From Candidatus Wildermuthbacteria bacterium RIFOXYD1_FULL_50_12 (GTDB taxonomy: Bacteria; Patescibacteriota; Minisyncoccia; Minisyncoccales; UBA10102): DNA of 39,773 nucleotides. Numbering within the stretch: position 1 is the first letter of the stretch; the number at the start of each line of letters is the position of its first letter. Positions 3,734 to 21,024 of the stretch are shown here, one piece after another. Made by a program: the position numbers and the translations under genes. A model generated the notes under the pieces. The model worked only from the letters and a program-made list of their open reading frames with translations, ran no database searches and was not told the origin of the DNA. The stretch is taken from positions 83,205-122,977 of the forward strand of contig MHUO01000004.1 in the NCBI GenBank assembly GCA_001825035.1, given 5' to 3'.

Positions 3734-5236
3734 ATGTCGAATTTAAATTTTTTAGATGAAATCGCAATAAGTTTTGGATCGTATCTGCCAAGCTTAGTGG
3801 GCGCGCTGGCAGTTCTCCTTTTGGGCTGGATTGTTGCCTTGCTGATAGCAGGGATCGTGCGGGGATTGTTGCGCCGCACCACGTTAGACGAGCGCATTGC
3901 GGCATGGCTTATGGGGAAGCGCGATACGGAAGGGGTGAACGTGGAACAGTGGATCGCAAAGCTCGTGTTTTACTTTATCTTGCTGTTTGCCTTGGTCGCG
4001 TTTTTTGAAACACTCGGGCTTTCTCTCATTGCCTCTTCGCTTGACAGCTTCCTCGGCCAGATTTTTTCATACATTCCTCGCCTGATTGAGGCAGGGTTCG
4101 TGCTTTTGATTGCCTGGATTTTGGCTACCGCCTCGCGGCTTATCGCCCGGCGCGTGCTGGGTTTGGCAAAGATAGACAGAGAGCTTGAGGTGCGAGCGGG
4201 GCTGCGGCATGAAAAGGCGGCGCCTCTTTCGCGCACCCTTTCTGAGGCCGTGTACTGGCTTGTGTTTCTCTTGTTTTTGCCGGCACTCTTGGATGCTTTG
4301 GCGCTTCACGGGCTCTTGGAGCCGGTGCAGGGAATGAGCAACAAAGTCCTTACATTTCTGCCGAATCTTCTGGCAGCGGGGCTTTTGGTGTTCGTGGGGT
4401 GGTTTGCGGCCCGCATCGTGCAGAGAATCGTGACGAATCTGCTTGCGGCCTTGGGCGCCGATCGTCTTTCAGAGCGTGTCGGGATTATGCAGATTTTGGG
4501 AACTCAAACGCTTTCTTCAATGCTCGGAGTGGTGGCGTACGTGCTCGTGCTTATTCCCGTGCTTATAGCGAGCTTGAACGCGCTCGGGCTGGACGCAGTT
4601 ACGAATCCCGCGAGCAACATGCTGGCAATCATACTTGCGGCCATTCCTTCCATCTTTGCCGCAGGAATTGTGATGCTGTTTGCTTATATCGCAGGCCGCG
4701 TGGTGAGCGGACTCGTAAGCAATTTGCTTGCTGCCATAGGATTTGATAAGGTGTTAACTTTGCTGGGCTTAGGGAAGGAAATGCGAGGATCGCGAAAGCC
4801 GTCCGAAATCGTTGGATACCTCGTGCTGGTGGCCATATTGCTGTTTTCCTTTATTGAGGCGATGCGGCTGTTGGGCTTTGAAGTTGTTGCGGCCCTCACC
4901 GCGGAATTCATTGTGTTTTCCGGTCATATCATCTTGGGCCTCGTGATTTTCGCGATTGGGCTGTATCTTGCGGGCGTGGCTTCAAAAGCGCTGGCGCACG
5001 GAAGAGGCAGACAGGCGCACTTTTTGGCTTTGTCAGCGAGAGTCGCCATTCTTGCGTTCGCAGGAGCCATGGCTTTGCGCCAGATGGGTTTGGCTGACGA
5101 GATTGTGAGCATCGCATTCGGGCTCACCTTGGGCGCGGTTGCCGTGGCTGTTGCTCTCGCGTTTGGCTTGGGAGGCCGCGACGTGGCGGCAAAACATTTG
5201 GAGGAATGGACGAAATCCTTGAAGAGAAGGCGGTGA
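3734..5236 (+). CDS. Multi-pass membrane protein with repeated TM-helix units (MscS-related 'conserved TM helix' family)
   Basis: 500 aa. Repeated unit F(L)P(N/S/R)L..AG..(V/L)..(G/A)(W/Y)..AR.V, e.g. YLPSLVGALAVLLLGWIVALL, YIPRLIEAGFVLLIAWILATASRLIARRV, FLPNLLAAGLLVFVGWFAARIV, AIPSIFAAGIVMLFAYIAGRVV. Confidence 0.8.
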   Translation: MSNLNFLDEIAISFGSYLPSLVGALAVLLLGWIVALLIAGIVRGLLRRTTLDERIAAWLMGKRDTEGVNVEQWIAKLVFYFILLFALVAFFETLGLSLIASSLDSFLGQIFSYIPRLIEAGFVLLIAWILATASRLIARRVLGLAKIDRELEVRAGLRHEKAAPLSRTLSEAVYWLVFLLFLPALLDALALHGLLEPVQGMSNKVLTFLPNLLAAGLLVFVGWFAARIVQRIVTNLLAALGADRLSERVGIMQILGTQTLSSMLGVVAYVLVLIPVLIASLNALGLDAVTNPASNMLAIILAAIPSIFAAGIVMLFAYIAGRVVSGLVSNLLAAIGFDKVLTLLGLGKEMRGSRKPSEIVGYLVLVAILLFSFIEAMRLLGFEVVAALTAEFIVFSGHIILGLVIFAIGLYLAGVASKALAHGRGRQAHFLALSARVAILAFAGAMALRQMGLADEIVSIAFGLTLGAVAVAVALAFGLGGRDVAAKHLEEWTKSLKRRR

Positions 5237-14063: not shown

Positions 14064-15333
14064 TGATTAGGTCTGAAACGTTCGATCCCGTATTTCCGCA
14101 AAGAAGATACTCCTGCACGCGTTCAAAAAAATCATAAGACCGATTATTTTCAAGATATTCTTCAAGGGAGAGGTTCTCATCGAGCGCCTTCTTCTTTGTT
14201 ATCATATCACATATTGCTCCTGCAAAGTCAGTGTTGTCTCTCCCGTCTGAGGCAAGGGGCAAAAGGACGTGTCCTTCCTGCAGGAAACGGAGCGAAGAAA
14301 GCCCCAGCTCCAAATTCCTCCCTCCTTTTCCCGGATGTTTTATCGTAACCGTCGTTTCTCCGCCGTACAGCAAAACCGTGCGGGGCGCGGCTTTTTGGAG
14401 ATCCTCAACAATGGTTTTTGCCACATCCCTTGCTTCTCCCGTCAACACGGATGTGCGTATTTTGGCATGGAAGCCGAGCTCCTTTGCTTTTTCTGCCATT
14501 GCTTCAAGCGCCACGCCGTTGGACACAAACAAGATATTCGTAACGTTTTTGAAATATTTCCCTTCCTTGGGGGTTTCAAGCAGTGTAATCTTCGGGATTA
14601 CGCATGTTTCTAAAACAGAGTATTTTTTGAGAATTTGCTCCGCGTCTTCTTTTTTTGTCGTATCTTTGATGGTGGGGCCCGAGGCGATAAACTCCATGTT
14701 GTCTCCCGGCACATCGGAGAAAATCAGCGAAATTGAGCGCGCGGGATACGCGTGCATTGCGAGATACCCTCCTCTCGCGAGCGATAAATGCTTGCGCACG
14801 ATATTGAGTTCCTGAATGGTGGCTCCCGCGCGAAACAAAGAGCTTACGATTGCCGCTTCATCTTGGCAGGAAAGCGACTCTGGCTGGCAAAGAAGCGTGG
14901 AACCTCCTCCTGAAACGACAAATAAGACAAGATCGTCCTGTTCCAGCACCTTTAGCAATGTAATAATTTCTGCCGTTGCCTTTGCGTTGCGCTCCGTGGG
15001 AAAGGGATGATCTCCCACCAGAAGACGCAAGCGTTCAAGCGCCCCTTCTTTAATATCGAGCACTATGCCGCCCGCAATGCGGTCTCCGAGAACTTCTTCC
15101 AGCGCGGAGCAGGCGGCTAAAGCGCATTTTCCAATTCCGACGACATATACATTCCGTACATCTTTCAAGGAGAATGCCCGGTTTTGTATAAAAAGAGTGG
15201 AGTTCTCTATGCGTATGCCTTTTCGAACTATTGTAGGAGTATCAATAGCCCACAGACCTGCCTCCGCAATTTCAAGAGCCGTTTTTCTCGTTTCGCTGGA
15301 GGAGAGTTGTTCAAAGTTTTGGATCTTCCGCAT
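14047..15333 (-). CDS. Glycerate 2-kinase (DUF4147/MOFRL type)
   Basis: 428 aa; VGIGKCALAA, LVGDHPFPTERNAKAT, VSGGGSTLLCQPE, SDVPGDNMEFIASGPT, LLYGGETTVTIKHPGKGGRNLELGLS, LASDGRDNTDFAGAI. Confidence 0.92.
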   Translation of the reverse strand: MRKIQNFEQLSSSETRKTALEIAEAGLWAIDTPTIVRKGIRIENSTLFIQNRAFSLKDVRNVYVVGIGKCALAACSALEEVLGDRIAGGIVLDIKEGALERLRLLVGDHPFPTERNAKATAEIITLLKVLEQDDLVLFVVSGGGSTLLCQPESLSCQDEAAIVSSLFRAGATIQELNIVRKHLSLARGGYLAMHAYPARSISLIFSDVPGDNMEFIASGPTIKDTTKKEDAEQILKKYSVLETCVIPKITLLETPKEGKYFKNVTNILFVSNGVALEAMAEKAKELGFHAKIRTSVLTGEARDVAKTIVEDLQKAAPRTVLLYGGETTVTIKHPGKGGRNLELGLSSLRFLQEGHVLLPLASDGRDNTDFAGAICDMITKKKALDENLSLEEYLENNRSYDFFERVQEYLLCGNTGSNVSDLIIAIRE

Positions 15334-15369
15334 TTGGCCATCCTATCACAGATTGTAGAGAGGAGGAAA

Positions 15370-15385
15370 TTCCTTACTGGTGCCC
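15370..15385 (+). repeat. 16-bp direct repeat matching the tRNA-Leu 3' junction (copy 1)
   Basis: TTCCTTACTGGTGCCC, identical to 18813-18828. Confidence 0.8.
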
Positions 15386-15446
15386 TTGGTTAGATTGAAT
15401 TGGAGCCAAATAGTCCAAAATTTGAAACTCTGGGAATCTGCTCCAC

Positions 15447-15716
15447 CTAATTTTTATCCTTTGAGCTGATTTTTGTTTTCATTCCCAAAATTGTGCCTGT
15501 CCCTATGCCTAGTGCGTAAATTACAATTGCGATGATGCCCCTTTCTTTATCAAGTTGAGTAATAATGTTGTAAAGCACCAGCATTGAAACAATCGTCACG
15601 ATAACTGAAAAAATGGCAGCAGGAATAGCTTTTTCTTTTGCAATAAAACGCCAGTTGAGAGTGAGTAGAAAATCCTGAAGAATACCTGCCAAGAAATAAA
15701 GAATGAGATAATGCAT
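15447..15716 (-). CDS. Small membrane protein, about 3 TM segments
   Basis: 89 aa MHYLILYFLAGILQDFLLTLNWRFIAKEKAIPAAIFSVIVTIVSMLVLYNIITQLDKERGIIAIVIYALGIGTGTILGMKTK. Confidence 0.7.
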   Translation of the reverse strand: MHYLILYFLAGILQDFLLTLNWRFIAKEKAIPAAIFSVIVTIVSMLVLYNIITQLDKERGIIAIVIYALGIGTGTILGMKTKISSKDKN

Positions 15717-15742
15717 AATCGTATATTATCGTAGTTTGATTG

Positions 15743-15784
15743 TGGTGCTCTATATTGAAAATAGTTCGAACGCATTTCGCCGCC
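15743..15784 (+). repeat. Element left-end repeat, copy A
   Basis: TGGTGCTCTATATTGAAAATAGTTCGAACGCATTTCGCCGCC; matches the reverse complement of 17177-17218 at 37/42 positions. Confidence 0.85.
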
Positions 15785-15886
15785 TGCGGCGGCGAAAACA
15801 AGCCCCCGTAATTTGCGGCTCGCCCGCGGGGCTCGCCGCGTTCTTTGACAATTTCAAATTTTTCTATGAGTTAATCATAACTCATT

Positions 15887-15929
15887 GCAGTAAATTTTTC
15901 AAGAAAAATGAGCTTGAAAAATTTACTGC
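15887..15929. repeat. Long perfect hairpin in the element, 3' of hisG
   Basis: gcagtaaatttttcaag / cttgaaaaatttactgc, 17-bp perfect arms with a 9-nt loop. Preceded by atgagtta-atca-taactcat (15866-15885). Confidence 0.85.
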
Positions 15930-15961
15930 TTTGGCGGCAAATTCTTTAGCACTTTTACAAA

Positions 15962-15998
15962 AAGAACAGTGGGCAAGAATAAAATTCTCTTGCCCACT
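15962..15998 (-). terminator. Terminator for the minus-strand hisG-like gene
   Basis: Arms agtgggcaaga (15968-15978) and tcttgcccact (15988-15998); on the minus strand followed by CTGTTCTTTTT. Confidence 0.7.
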
Positions 15999-16020
15999 AT
16001 TGTGCAAACACTTGGTTTGC

Positions 16021-16911
16021 CTACGACATTATTAGCGGAATATCTCGATTGACGAGGATGTCGGTGACTCCAATCTGCAAAAGTTCGAAGATTACCTTTT
16101 GCTCGTCTTCTCGAGCCACAACAGATTGGAGAGCGAACCACCCTTTCACGCCAACAAGTGGCGAGCAGGAAGGCCCCTTAAGTCCTCCGATGATGCGGCT
16201 CGCCTCGTCCAGAACATTCTCGGGCACATTAGCTACGAGCATTACACGTTTCGAAGCTTGAAATGCACCGTTGATAAGCCGGATAAAACAATCGATGTAT
16301 GGCCGTTTAGATTCATCGGCGAACGATTCGGGGTTCGCTACAACAACGGTGTTGGACTCCATTATTTCGCAAATGATCTCGAGTTGGTTTTCTTCCAGAG
16401 AATCGCCGCTCTCTGTCACATCAACGATTGCCGTTGCCCCAAATCCGATCTTGTGTTCGGTGTTGCCAAAGGACGGAACAACTTTGATGTCATTTCTTCC
16501 TAGATCAATGAAGAATCTTTGGACCAACTGGACATACTCGGTGGCAACTTCGCAATTTTGGGGCAGTTCTTCTACCCGCCGAAAATCACTGGCTTGATTC
16601 ACCGCCAAGACGATCTTAACGGGTTTGTTGCCACTGCGACCAATCGGAAGTTTGAGCAAAACGGGGAATTCATAACCCCAGTTAGCAATCCAGTCCTCGC
16701 CCACAATGGCGACATCGAAATGACCATTCTTGAGGTAATTCGGGATTTCCTGCGGTCTCTGAAAGGCAACGCGCTTAATCCAATCAACTCCGACTTTGCC
16801 TTCCTTTGTCCGCCTTTTTTCTATCACCACCGGCAACCCCGCTTTGGCAAAAAGGCCGACAATGACCTCTTGCATGGAACCATCTGGAACGACTATATCA
16901 ATCTGACTCAT
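16021..16911 (-). CDS. hisG: ATP phosphoribosyltransferase, long HisG form with C-terminal regulatory domain
   Basis: 296 aa; FDVAIVGEDWIANWG, CEVATEYVQLVQRFF, GFGATAIVDVTESGDSLEENQLEII, VVVANPESF; HisG_C-like VPENVLDEASRIIGGLKGPSCSPLVGVKGWFALQSVVARED...IGVTDILV. Confidence 0.85.
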   Translation of the reverse strand: MSQIDIVVPDGSMQEVIVGLFAKAGLPVVIEKRRTKEGKVGVDWIKRVAFQRPQEIPNYLKNGHFDVAIVGEDWIANWGYEFPVLLKLPIGRSGNKPVKIVLAVNQASDFRRVEELPQNCEVATEYVQLVQRFFIDLGRNDIKVVPSFGNTEHKIGFGATAIVDVTESGDSLEENQLEIICEIMESNTVVVANPESFADESKRPYIDCFIRLINGAFQASKRVMLVANVPENVLDEASRIIGGLKGPSCSPLVGVKGWFALQSVVAREDEQKVIFELLQIGVTDILVNRDIPLIMS

Positions 16912-17075
16912 GGCATGCCTTCTCTCTTTCTAGTTTTGAATGAGCTGCGTTATCTACTACTTTTCGACAACAGCCTACCTTAACATAAAAGCTATAAATT
17001 GTCCATCCCAATAACAAAAAACAGAAATTTCTAAGAATTTCTGCAACAATATAGTATGCAAAAATTTTCTTTTAC

Positions 17076-17102
17076 AAAATGTGGTTCGAGCCGATATTTT
17101 TA
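17076..17102 (-). repeat. Recombinase C-terminal fragment, inverted, exact 27-bp match
   Basis: Reverse complement of 18700-18726 (taaaaatatcggctcgaaccacatttt). Confidence 0.9.
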
Positions 17103-17105
17103 TCA

Positions 17106-17125
17106 GGTTCTTTGGCAGTTTTTAA
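17106..17125 (-). repeat. Recombinase N-terminal fragment, inverted, ~20-bp match
   Basis: Reverse complement reads aaaaactgccaaagaacctg, identical to a stretch in the recombinase 5' region (about 17506-17525). It abuts the 17076-17102 fragment. Confidence 0.8.
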
Positions 17126-17212
17126 AAATCGCGGCGAAGCCGCTTAATTTTTGGGGGGCTTCTCGTCGCCACCTTCGGCGGCGAAATGCGTGCGGACTAT
17201 TTTAAGAATAGA

Positions 17213-17311
17213 GCACCAGTAAGGAAAAGTCAAATTTCGTTGGTTCGCCTCGCTTCGCTCGGCGACCAAATCGTAGGGAATTTTGGGCGAAAAAATCAAT
17301 TGGCGGTTTTG
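17213..17311 (+). repeat. 99-bp inverted repeat, left arm
   Basis: gcaccagtaaggaaaagtcaaatttcgttggttcgcctcgcttcgctcggcgacCaaatcgtagggaattttgggcgaaaaaatcaattggcggttttg; reverse complement of 18728-18826 with one mismatch. Confidence 0.97.
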
Positions 17312-17366
17312 AATTAGTAAAAGAAAATTTTGTCATAATTATTTATTATTAACTAAAGGAAAAAAT

Positions 17367-18389
17367 ATGAAATACATTATTTACGCACGCAAAAGCACCG
17401 AAGAAGACGACAGACAGATATTAAGTATTGAAGCACAATTTGTTGAGCTAAAAGAATTTGCCGCCAAAGAAAAACTTGAAATTGTCACCTCTTTTCAAGA
17501 GGCAAAAACTGCCAAAGAACCTGGGCGAATGAAATTCGCAGAAATGTTGTCATTGATAGAAAAAGGAAAGGCAGACGGAATAATTTCATGGCACCCTGAT
17601 AGATTAGCTCGTAATTCTGTGGACGGTGGCAAGATAATTCATTTTGTCGATCGGGGTTTAATCAAATCCCTCAAATTTCCCACTTTTTGGTTTGAACCGA
17701 CACCGCAAGGATTATTCATGCTCAATATCGCTTTTGGCCAATCAAAATATTTTGTAGACAATTTGCGAGAGAATGTAAAAAGAGGTTTGCGACAAAAAAT
17801 CAGAAATGGCGTTTGGCCCGGTTGGGCGCCAGTGGGATATTTGAATAATCCTAAAACTAGAATGATTGATATTGATAAAAGCAAATTTCTGAAAGTTAAA
17901 AAACTTTTTGAACTTTACGCCACTGGCGAATACACTCTAAAATCTCTCGCAAATTGGTGTAAAGAAAAAAGTTTGCGTGGAAATCTCGGAAAAGAAATTG
18001 CAATCGGCAATATCCAAAAAATTCTACAAAATATTTTCTACATTGGCCTGATGAAATATCATGGGGAAATTTTTGAGGGACAACACGAGCCGTTAATTTC
18101 AAAGAAACTTTTTGATAAATGCCGAGAAGTGATGAGCAAACGAGGAAAAGTGCAAGAAGTTAGAAAACATAACTTTGCTTTTCTTGGCTTGCTAAAATGT
18201 TACTCTTGTGGAGCGAGTATCACCGCCGAAATTCAAAAAGGACATAATTATTATCGTTGCACCAAGAAAAAAGGTTTGTGCCAAGAAAAACATTATTTAA
18301 GAGAGGAACTTTTAAACGAACAGATTAAAACCTTCCTTCAAAAATTTCTTTGTCGAGCCAAGACACCGGAAAAATTTTGGCGGCGCTGA
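17367..18389 (+). CDS. Large serine recombinase: resolvase, recombinase and zinc-ribbon domains
   Basis: MKYIIYARKSTEEDDRQILSIEAQ (catalytic Ser), GIISWHPDRLARN, recombinase domain PGWAPVGYLNNP, zinc ribbon GLLKCYSCGASITAEIQKGHNYYRCTKKKGLCQEKHYLRE. Confidence 0.93.
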   Translation: MKYIIYARKSTEEDDRQILSIEAQFVELKEFAAKEKLEIVTSFQEAKTAKEPGRMKFAEMLSLIEKGKADGIISWHPDRLARNSVDGGKIIHFVDRGLIKSLKFPTFWFEPTPQGLFMLNIAFGQSKYFVDNLRENVKRGLRQKIRNGVWPGWAPVGYLNNPKTRMIDIDKSKFLKVKKLFELYATGEYTLKSLANWCKEKSLRGNLGKEIAIGNIQKILQNIFYIGLMKYHGEIFEGQHEPLISKKLFDKCREVMSKRGKVQEVRKHNFAFLGLLKCYSCGASITAEIQKGHNYYRCTKKKGLCQEKHYLREELLNEQIKTFLQKFLCRAKTPEKFWRR

Positions 18390-18874
18390 ATAGTGAACAA
18401 GAGCAAGCAAAATTACAGACACAATTAGAAGTGGAAAACTTGAAAACGCAATTAAACCAAGTGGAAACAAAATTAACGAAACTGCTTGATGTGTTTTTGA
18501 ACGACGCTTTATCCATAGAAGAATACGCCGCCAAAAAGCAAAGCTTGCTTTCTGAAAAAGTATCGTTAAATGAAAAAATTAGCGACTTTGAGCAAAAAGG
18601 GTTGTCTTGGCTCGAACCGGCTCGTGAGTTCGTTTTATCTCTTAATCAAGCCGCAAAATTAGTAGAAACCGAAAACAAAAAAGAGATGACAACATTTCTT
18701 AAAAATATCGGCTCGAACCACATTTTACAAAACCGCCAATTGATTTTTTCGCCCAAAATTCCCTACGATTTAGTCGCCGAGCGAAGCGAGGCGAACCAAC
18801 GAAATTTGACTTTTCCTTACTGGTGCCCGGGGAGAGAATCGAACTCTCATGAGGTTGTCCTCAATGGATTTTGA
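18341..18874 (+). pseudogene. Out-of-frame C-terminal coiled coil of the same recombinase
   Basis: The -1 frame continues ...SLSSQDTGKILAALNSEQEQAKLQTQLEVENLKTQLNQVETKLTKLLDVFLNDALSIEEYAAKKQSLLSEK..., the expected recombinase C-terminus. One extra A in the A-run at 18340-18344 would fuse the frames. Confidence 0.8.
18728..18826 (-). repeat. 99-bp inverted repeat, right arm (ends in the tRNA-Leu 3' end)
   Basis: 98/99 reverse-complement identity to 17213-17311. Confidence 0.97.
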
Positions 18875-18907
18875 GTCCATCGCGTCTGCCTATTCCGCCA
18901 CCCGGGC
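18821..18907 (-). tRNA. tRNA-Leu (anticodon CAA), CCA encoded
   Basis: Minus strand GCCCGGGTGGCGGAATAGGCAGACGCGATGGACTCAAAATCCATTGAGGACAACCTCATGAGAGTTCGATTCTCTCCCCGGGCACCA. 7-bp acceptor stem, long variable arm, TTCGATTC T-loop, loop CTCAAAA. Confidence 0.97.
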
Positions 18908-18960
18908 AACCCAAAGACGCTTCCATTATATCGGGATTTACCTTTTTGTAAAGGAAAATA

Positions 18961-21024
18961 CTATTTCTTGTTGGTGGAGCAATCGGGATTTGAGCACTGC
19001 TCCTTTTTTCGTTTCTCAATCAAAAGAGAACCGCATTGTTCGCAGAGTTTACCCTTGCCCGCCTCTCGGCCAGACACAGGTTTGTCCCACAAGGCAAAAT
19101 CGCATTCAGGATAGCGACCGCATCCGTAAAAAATCTTTCTTCGTTTTGTATGCTTTGCGGTGAGCTGACCTTGCCGACATTTGGGGCAGGGAATATTGAT
19201 ATTGTTTTCTTCAAGCGAGGCCGTGTATTTGCATTTCGGGAAACCGGAGCACGCGTAAAACTTGCCGTATCTTCCCAGACGAATCAAAAGGGGTTTTCCG
19301 CATTCGGGGCACTTTTTGTCGGTTTTTTCCGCCGCTATCTTTTGTTTGGAAACCTCTTTTTCTTTCTTTGCAAGGTTTTGGGCAAAGGGTGTGTAGAATT
19401 CTTTTAACACCGGAACCCATTCCCTTTTTCCTTCTGCGATCTTGTCCAAGTCCTCTTCCATTCCTGCCGTGAAACCAACGTCAACGATCTCGGGGAAATG
19501 CTCTACGAGAAGATCGTTTACCGCGTTGCCAACATCAGTAGGGCGCAATCTTCGCTGTTCGTCCTTTTCCACGTAATTACGCTCCTGAATGGTTGAGAGA
19601 ATAGGAGCGTATGTGGAAGGCCGGCCAATGCCGAAGCTCTCAAGCGCCTTAATCAAGCTTGCTTCGTTATACCGTGGAGGCGGCTGGGTAAAATGCTGGG
19701 ACGGCACCAGTTTTTTTAAATCAAGAATCTCGCCTTTTTTGAGCACAGGAAGATCCGTTTCCTCAAATTTCATCGAGTAAACCTTAAGAAATCCGTCAAA
19801 TGTTAGCACTTGCCCTGTTGCGCGGAAGATGTATTGATGTGCCTGCACATCAACACTTGTTGCGTCGAATATGGCCTGCGACATTTGGCAGGCAAGAAAT
19901 CTCCGCCAGATTAAATCATACAACTTTGCTTGCGGAGGAGTGAGTTTTAGGTTTGCCGGCGCGTTGTTGGGATTGGTGGGCCTAATTGCTTCGTGCGCCT
20001 CTTGGGCGCCCTTTGATTTGGTTTTAAATCGGCGGAACGCGCCGGCTCCGTACTTTAGTCCGTATGTTTTTTCAATAAAGTTTTTTGCCGCAGCCAGCGA
20101 ACTTTCCGCAAGATTTACAGAGTCGGTGCGGTGATACGTGATAAGCCCCGTTTCGTAGAGCTGCTGGGCTATCTGCATGGTGAGCTTTGCTGGAAACCTG
20201 AGGCGCTGGGCTGCGGTTTGCTGAAGGGTTGAGGTGGTGAATGGCGGCAGGGGATTGCGCGAAATTTCTTTCCTTTCAATATGGAGGACCCGATACTCCG
20301 CCCCCCCTAATTCCTTCAAAATCGTATCGGCCTCTTCTTTGTTTTTGATATCAAGCTTCCCAGTCGGTCTTCCGTCTTTCTGGGCGAGTGTAGCTTGAAA
20401 TACGCTTTGTCCGTCAGTTGGTTGATTGAGCTTTTGGAGCGTGGCGACAATTGTCCAGTATTCCTGCGCTTTGAATGCCTCAATCTCTCGCTCCCTATCC
20501 GCGACCAAGCGCACCGCAACCGACTGCACTCGTCCTGCAGACAATTTGCGCGCCACCTTTTTCCAAAGAAAAGGGGAGAGCTTGTATCCTACGAGTCGAT
20601 CCAAAATGCGCCGCGCCTGCTGTGCATCTACCAGATTTATGTCTATTTTGCGCGGAGCCTTCAGCGCCTCTTCAATCGCGTGCTTGGTAATTTCGTGGAA
20701 TGCAATTCGTTCGGGATCCTTCAGCGAGAGCGCGTGCGCCAAATGCCAGGCGATGGCTTCTCCCTCTCTGTCTTCGTCCGTGGCGAGAATAGTTTGGCTA
20801 GCCTCCCCAGCTTCCTTCTTGAGAGCCGCAAGCGTTTTCCTGGCTTTGGCCGGGATGATGTACGTGGGTTCGAAATTGCGCTCCACGTCCACGCCCAATT
20901 TACTTTTGGGCAAATCGCGAATATGCCCCATGCTTGCCATGACGCGGTAATCTTTCCCGAGAAACTGGGATAAGGTGCGAGCTTTCGTTGGGCTTTCCAC
21001 GAGAACTAATTTTGGCATATTCAT
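18961..21024 (-). CDS. topA: DNA topoisomerase I
   Basis: 687 aa; KLVLVESPTKARTLSQFLG, LATDEDREGEAIAWHL, GLITYHRTDS, RPSTYAPILSTIQ; C-terminal zinc ribbons CPECGKPLLIR and CPKCRQGQL. Confidence 0.97.
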   Translation of the reverse strand: MNMPKLVLVESPTKARTLSQFLGKDYRVMASMGHIRDLPKSKLGVDVERNFEPTYIIPAKARKTLAALKKEAGEASQTILATDEDREGEAIAWHLAHALSLKDPERIAFHEITKHAIEEALKAPRKIDINLVDAQQARRILDRLVGYKLSPFLWKKVARKLSAGRVQSVAVRLVADREREIEAFKAQEYWTIVATLQKLNQPTDGQSVFQATLAQKDGRPTGKLDIKNKEEADTILKELGGAEYRVLHIERKEISRNPLPPFTTSTLQQTAAQRLRFPAKLTMQIAQQLYETGLITYHRTDSVNLAESSLAAAKNFIEKTYGLKYGAGAFRRFKTKSKGAQEAHEAIRPTNPNNAPANLKLTPPQAKLYDLIWRRFLACQMSQAIFDATSVDVQAHQYIFRATGQVLTFDGFLKVYSMKFEETDLPVLKKGEILDLKKLVPSQHFTQPPPRYNEASLIKALESFGIGRPSTYAPILSTIQERNYVEKDEQRRLRPTDVGNAVNDLLVEHFPEIVDVGFTAGMEEDLDKIAEGKREWVPVLKEFYTPFAQNLAKKEKEVSKQKIAAEKTDKKCPECGKPLLIRLGRYGKFYACSGFPKCKYTASLEENNINIPCPKCRQGQLTAKHTKRRKIFYGCGRYPECDFALWDKPVSGREAGKGKLCEQCGSLLIEKRKKEQCSNPDCSTNKK

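Follow-up and report, generated by a model that had tools for sequence, protein, structure and literature searches.

A probable tRNA-end integrative element with a large serine recombinase in a Candidatus Wildermuthbacteria genome, and its mainly Patescibacterial family

We describe a small element beside tRNA-Leu(CAA) in a 39,773-nt stretch of DNA (the window) from Candidatus Wildermuthbacteria bacterium RIFOXYD1_FULL_50_12 (GCA_001825035.1, contig MHUO01000004.1, positions 83,205 to 122,977 of the forward strand). Positions 15743-18826 of the window very probably represent a small, degraded integrative element of a kind that inserts at tRNA 3' ends and belongs to a mainly Patescibacterial family carrying a large serine recombinase. 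An initial annotation had proposed that a compact integrative element with a serine recombinase occupies the 3' end of the tRNA gene, bounded by attL (host-core-L) at 15743 and attR (R-core-tRNA) at 18821 and containing an inverted attP (R-core-L) at 17218. Related loci support both the element and these site assignments.

Two pairs of inverted arms in the window

Each of the three claimed junctions was located in place by a direct sequence check. They read GATTG-TGGTGC-TCTATATTGAAAATAG at 15743, TTCCTTAC-TGGTGC-TCTATTCTTAAAATAG on the minus strand at 17218, and TTCCTTAC-TGGTGC-CCGGGG at 18813, the last continuing into tRNA-Leu(CAA), and they form the outer edges of two longer pairs of inverted repeats (Table 1). 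We use R for the mirrored ends on the recombinase side and L for the mirrored ends on the cargo side: the R pair (99 nt, 99% identity) flanks a serine recombinase gene, and the L pair (65 nt, 82% identity) flanks a hisG gene. The sites are named S1 (15743), S2 (17213-17218, inverted) and S3 (18821-18826). These inverted repeats and junctions lie far beyond chance, and the arrangement is repeated at dozens of independent loci.

The recombinase has the domains PF00239, PF07508 and PF13408 above cutoff, in the order typical of large serine recombinases, and a coiled coil is suggested by its sequence only. Recombinase domains found by a domain search within the window are of the serine type only, with none of the tyrosine type. 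By PDB sequence match, the nearest solved relatives (YokA and the A118 integrase) are distant, and the best NCBIfam resemblance is to CcrB, at 96 bits against a cutoff of 900. Comparison with three relatives places a frame break near 18340, after which the C-terminal part resumes in the frame of 18350-18874; in relatives the gene is intact. The frameshift and the diverged L arms suggest that the window copy is old and probably not autonomous, and because of the frameshift it is probably unable to move by itself.

A widespread family at tRNA genes

A profile built from an eight-sequence alignment retrieved at least 552 relatives from 84,980 species genomes. We analysed 82 loci, comprising the best 80 of these genome relatives, one viral contig and the window; viral contigs held 3 relatives only, two of them fragments. 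Among 60 relatives, homologous recombinases repeatedly adjoin tRNA genes, and in several cases the inverted repeats around the recombinase extend a few bases into the tRNA. Inverted R arms occur in 68 of the 82 loci, and in 43 of the 48 where both sides have enough sequence. A convergent tRNA gene begins 250-650 bp past the match in 51 of the 64 loci whose downstream sequence extends to at least 700 bp, and S1 with a mirrored L arm around the cargo is present in 29 of the 33 loci that have at least 9 kb upstream and R arms.

The paired L arms of a locus, and likewise its paired R arms, mostly share 95-100% identity, although the recombinases of different loci average 62% (minimum 46%, 30 loci). 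The arms have a median length of about 100 nt and the cargo a median length of 1.45 kb (range 0.9-9.1 kb), in elements of 2.5-11 kb. Eleven target isotypes are represented in the analysed loci (Ser, Gln, Arg, Leu, Glu, Phe, Ala, Tyr, Asn, Val and Trp), and Ile, Lys and Gly tRNAs are targets in other relatives. The element family is widespread and mainly Patescibacterial.

Two further stretches lie in the genome to which the window belongs. At L019 (positions 4699-4880, contig C1), a 32-nt R/R' palindrome comes after a tRNA-Ser gene, and beyond it are a scaffold gap and a truncated recombinase; this is another decayed element. At L018 (positions 172-1741, contig C3), a second, open recombinase of 512 aa runs into tRNA-Ile(TAT), and the contig ends just upstream of it.

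Encoded CCA, unoccupied relatives and stacking

The consensus of the R end starts with CCA. Among relatives from the same family, most copies of tRNA-Leu(CAA) beside topA end in GCAC and run on into unrelated sequence, with no element present (L132, L134, L136, L148 and L159), and GCACCA followed by R is found in the window and in L133, with R remnants in L137 and L032. Integration seems to give the tRNA an encoded CCA, since most relatives without the element end in GCAC and occupied genes in GCACCA; the CCA is supplied by the R end of the element, so that near and far arms agree over TGG as well. This corrects the initial annotation, in which the core was equated with the encoded tRNA terminal CCA plus acceptor bases. 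Unoccupied tRNA-Leu loci exist in relatives, although no empty allele of the same strain was found. The element combines a boundary at a tRNA 3' end with an unoccupied site in relatives, as an integrative element does. At the same topA-tRNA-Leu(CAA) locus, L032 (positions 1501-2771, relative G027) holds a decayed element with different cargo and a 22-bp R remnant between two cores.

S1 marks the host boundary in L049 and L064, where a tRNA cluster continues to its left with the next tRNA gene. Two elements stand in a row beside one tRNA in L102 and in L114 (a record titled complete genome), and the tRNA-proximal recombinase differs from the displaced one. A second L type follows S3 of L112, and recombinase-like remnants lie left of S1 in L058. 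Such stacks fit successive insertion between the tRNA and an older element. The window itself has a further R-core junction, S0, whose R end matches that of L048 and L049 over 17 nt and whose right half is weakly L-like; an 89-aa DUF5698 gene sits between S0 and S1. S0 is probably the relic of an older stacked element.

Target recognition and the 5-bp shift

We aligned the L half-site and the paired tRNA of 38 loci at the discriminator base. In this alignment, L carries (T/C)CGAAC five bases further out than the tRNA carries its T-loop TTCGAAC, and the identity between L and tRNA peaks at 0.52 (offset 5), against 0.38 for an offset of 4 and 0.13-0.34 elsewhere. A structure-based analysis of large serine recombinases placed the zinc-ribbon-domain (ZD) motif at half-site positions 16-24 of attP and 11-19 of attB, a shift of 5 bp (Rutherford et al. 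2013, PMC3783163). With the central dinucleotide set at N73-N72, the L and tRNA motifs land on the published ZD positions. The dinucleotide at N73-N72 is common to S1, S2 and S3 in nearly all loci, L048 being the exception, and these two bases are probably the true shared core. Because the 5-bp shift and the N73-N72 position fit the published rule, the recombinase probably reads the T-arm as that half of attB which its zinc ribbon recognises.

Recombinase phylogeny tracks the terminal trinucleotides of the target tRNAs, which need 13 changes on the tree compared with 23.4 after shuffling and a least possible number of 10, and Leu, Arg and Phe tRNAs with the same ending fall in one recombinase clade. 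Near-identical recombinases are found across different candidate phyla. As a separate observation, recombinase genes carry the T-loop/ZD-like motif (T/C)CGAAC at two fixed distances, 12-18 and 102-120 bp before the near R arm, at twice the frequency seen after synonymous-codon shuffling.

Proposed mechanism and alternative explanations

We propose that the recombinase would integrate a circular form at the tRNA 3' end, with crossover between the discriminator base and its neighbour in the acceptor (N73-N72 as the central dinucleotide). The tRNA acceptor and T-arm would make up one half of attB, the TTCGAAC loop acting as the ZD motif, and the L end of attP would mimic the T-loop motif 5 bp further out. 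With an R end that starts with CCA, an occupied tRNA gene would keep or gain an encoded CCA. The element consists of two arcs, one with the cargo between mirrored L arms and the other with the recombinase between mirrored R arms, joined at an inverted attP (S2) that persists after integration, and later elements would insert between the tRNA and the older element to form stacks. The sequences themselves show the architecture, the position next to tRNA genes, the 5-bp shift, the diversity of cargo, the stacking and the unoccupied relatives, while the circular intermediate, the reading of the T-arm as a targeting rule and a spread by DNA uptake are inferred.

Several points weigh against an integrative element of this kind. 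The support consists of sequence comparison, at loci picked because their proteins resemble a single alignment. In the window, the recombinase has a frameshift and the two L arms show an 18% difference; no gene for an excision (directionality) factor was recognised; and no empty allele was found from the same strain or with the left flank of the window, a flank that has no match to the relatives' DNA downstream of tRNA-Leu. Moreover, the recombinase points towards the tRNA in 54 loci and away from it in 4 (L069, L072, L108 and L111, with the tRNA upstream of the recombinase), a bias that is unexpected because two identical attP sites on a circle should integrate both ways equally.

The same orientation count bears on a first alternative, in which 17213-18826 would be an invertible switch whose recombinase flips its own cassette for expression control, with tRNA adjacency being secondary. 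The near-perfect inverted repeats that enclose the recombinase and the four reversed loci speak for such a switch, but we reject it as unlikely on the orientation ratio: both orientations should be common, whereas 54 to 4 is not a mixed population. Flipping between identical arms would also leave the flanks unchanged, and S1, the mirrored L arms, the exchange of cargo, the matching cores and the stacking would go unexplained. Less likely again is an insertion-sequence-like transposon made up of R', recombinase and R, with the hisG segment as an unrelated neighbour. While its terminal inverted repeats would enclose a single recombinase gene, as found, the segment with L arms lies beside the recombinase at 29 of the 33 testable loci and holds copies of the recombinase's own segments, and the catalytic family is that of serine integrases. 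The core is, furthermore, inverted at the ends of the unit (GCACCA...TGGTGC, 17213/18821) in place of a direct target duplication, and this inversion together with the mirrored L arms led us to reject a simple insertion sequence. Finally, an assembly artefact or random relic, with inverted repeats arising from misassembly at tRNA ends, is hardly credible and was rejected, for although many contigs stop inside or just past the arms, as expected at repeats, the same layout recurs in many independent assemblies, including L114 and long contigs such as L083 (685 kb), and the arms, the 5-bp offset and the recombinase-tRNA specificity are locus-specific and coherent.

The inverted attP and antisense copies of recombinase segments

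Returning to the integrative element, the inverted attP is a fixed part of the family architecture and not a chance leftover of a circle. The window and L081 belong to a sublineage in which L arms of the S1 type differ from those of the S2 type, and each type stays at its own site although the two target tRNAs are different, as if one attP were always used. Alternatively, S2 may control the recombinase promoter.

The cargo ends of about 30 loci contain antisense copies of the same three recombinase segments, with nt 84-120 copied near S1 and nt 138-157 and about 1335-1361 copied near S2 (segments a, b and c in Table 1), and cargo genes are often preceded by a recombinase-like leader. On average, the copies match the recombinase of their own locus better than others. 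Synonymous-codon conservation peaks in segments a and c, at about 0.92 compared with 0.53 overall in the recombinase gene, and in a subfamily without segment copies, segment a is not such a peak. These observations suggest either a role as nucleic acid or an ongoing exchange between the two arcs. A coding role for the b and c copies was rejected, as they are mutually in frame in the window and not in L057. The recombinase coding sequence also contains a synonymous-site-conserved inverted repeat at nt 733-755 and 961-985 (TCAAAGAAACTTTTTGA / TTCAAAAAGTTTCTTTG).

More tentatively, we hypothesize that the mobile form might be a two-arc circle, its arcs joined at two identical inverted attP sites, with antisense copies that act as nucleic acid in functions such as arc matching, inter-element cargo exchange or recombinase silencing. 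We hold this to be a possibility on the doubtful side; if true, it would be a new kind of mobile-element architecture.

Cargo and features of the window

Cargo is diverse across the family and consists of single genes, many without a Pfam match, as well as restriction-modification operons (N6_Mtase, Eco57I, ResIII, HSDR and specificity subunits), a lysine exporter, an SDR with NAD(P)H-hydrate dehydratase and, in the window, hisG. Close hisG homologues were absent from the 60 relatives. PF00977, the sole other His-pathway search, gave one weak match elsewhere in the genome of the window. An Rfam search of 15300-19000 returned tRNA only and no known RNA family that would account for the conserved segments.

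Table 1. Positions of the element's sites, arms and genes in the window.
Feature	Position	Strand	Remarks
S0, probable relic R-core junction	15370..15383	+	beyond the interval of the initial annotation; TTCCTTAC-TGGTGC
S1, attL-like	15743..15807	+	core TGGTGC at 15743-15748, then L arm
ZD-like motif TTCGAAC in S1 L arm	about 15765-15771	+	
Recombinase segment a copies	15846..15947	-	pieces 15846-15868 and 15929-15947, short palindromic insert between
hisG cargo gene, 296 aa	16021..16911	-	PF01634 and PF08029; ATP phosphoribosyltransferase; reads away from S2
Cargo leader	17055..17078	-	like recombinase leader 17314-17337, inverted orientation
Recombinase segment copies	17070..17123	-	c at 17070-17102, b at 17104-17123
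L' arm	17154..17218	-	inverted repeat of 15743-15807 (82%); with R' arm forms S2
S2 core, inverted attP-like site	17213-17218	-	between L' and R' arms
R' arm	17213..17311	-	99-nt inverted repeat of 18728-18826 (99%)
Large serine recombinase	17367..18389	+	PF00239, PF07508, PF13408; frame broken near 18340
R arm; S3, attR-like	18728..18826	+	core 18821-18826 at tRNA 3' end
Target tRNA-Leu(CAA)	18821..18907	-	T-loop about 18839-18844 (+ strand), proposed attB ZD motif

Relation to known systems and significance

The recombinase resembles the A118/Listeria LI integrase (PDB 4kis, 6dnw) in its domain order PF00239-PF07508-PF13408, and the family resembles phage-type large serine integrases in having an attP longer than attB and a ZD motif shifted by 5 bp. 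Unlike phage integrases, the family targets the T-arm/3' end of many tRNA isotypes, has a second, inverted attP and carries no phage genes. Phage and plasmid collections contained distant recombinases only; among the matches listed, these, phage integrases included, are about 31% identical or less to the family recombinase.

Tycheposons insert at tRNA 3' ends, restore the gene end from the element, stack and carry cargo. tRNA genomic islands share with the family here 3'-end insertion, restoration of the gene end, stacking and cargo (PMC12884075). Both of these use tyrosine recombinases, whereas the present family has serine chemistry and a two-arc layout with an inverted attP. Integrons, too, hold a recombinase beside a recombination site with exchangeable single-gene cargo, as in this family. 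They rely on a tyrosine IntI and attC hairpin cassettes, unlike the serine recombinase and single cargo arc found here, which has no cassette array sites. SCC/ECC elements have variable cargo, conserved serine recombinase genes and composite att sites, features which recur in the family (PMC6222049). They target rlmH, have direct-repeat att sites of roughly 50 bp and reach tens of kb, unlike the tRNA-targeted elements of 2.5-11 kb with mirrored 100-nt arms around both arcs; SCC/ECC are recognised by Ccr orthologues and an rlmH target, and here the CcrB score is weak and the target is a tRNA. A search confined to the open-access PMC literature found no description of the element family. The enzyme is of a known kind, a large serine recombinase, and the architecture of the element is possibly new.

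Serine integrases are valued in genome engineering, each normally with its own idiosyncratic attB. A family that apparently reads the near-universal T-arm, with the acceptor end setting specificity, would offer predictable targets in many bacteria as well as a clean test of the attP/attB 5-bp rule, and the puzzle of its fixed inverted attP leads to predictions that can be tested directly. More generally, little is understood of how Patescibacteria exchange genes, and these elements represent a concrete vehicle for gene transfer among them, that of restriction-modification systems included.

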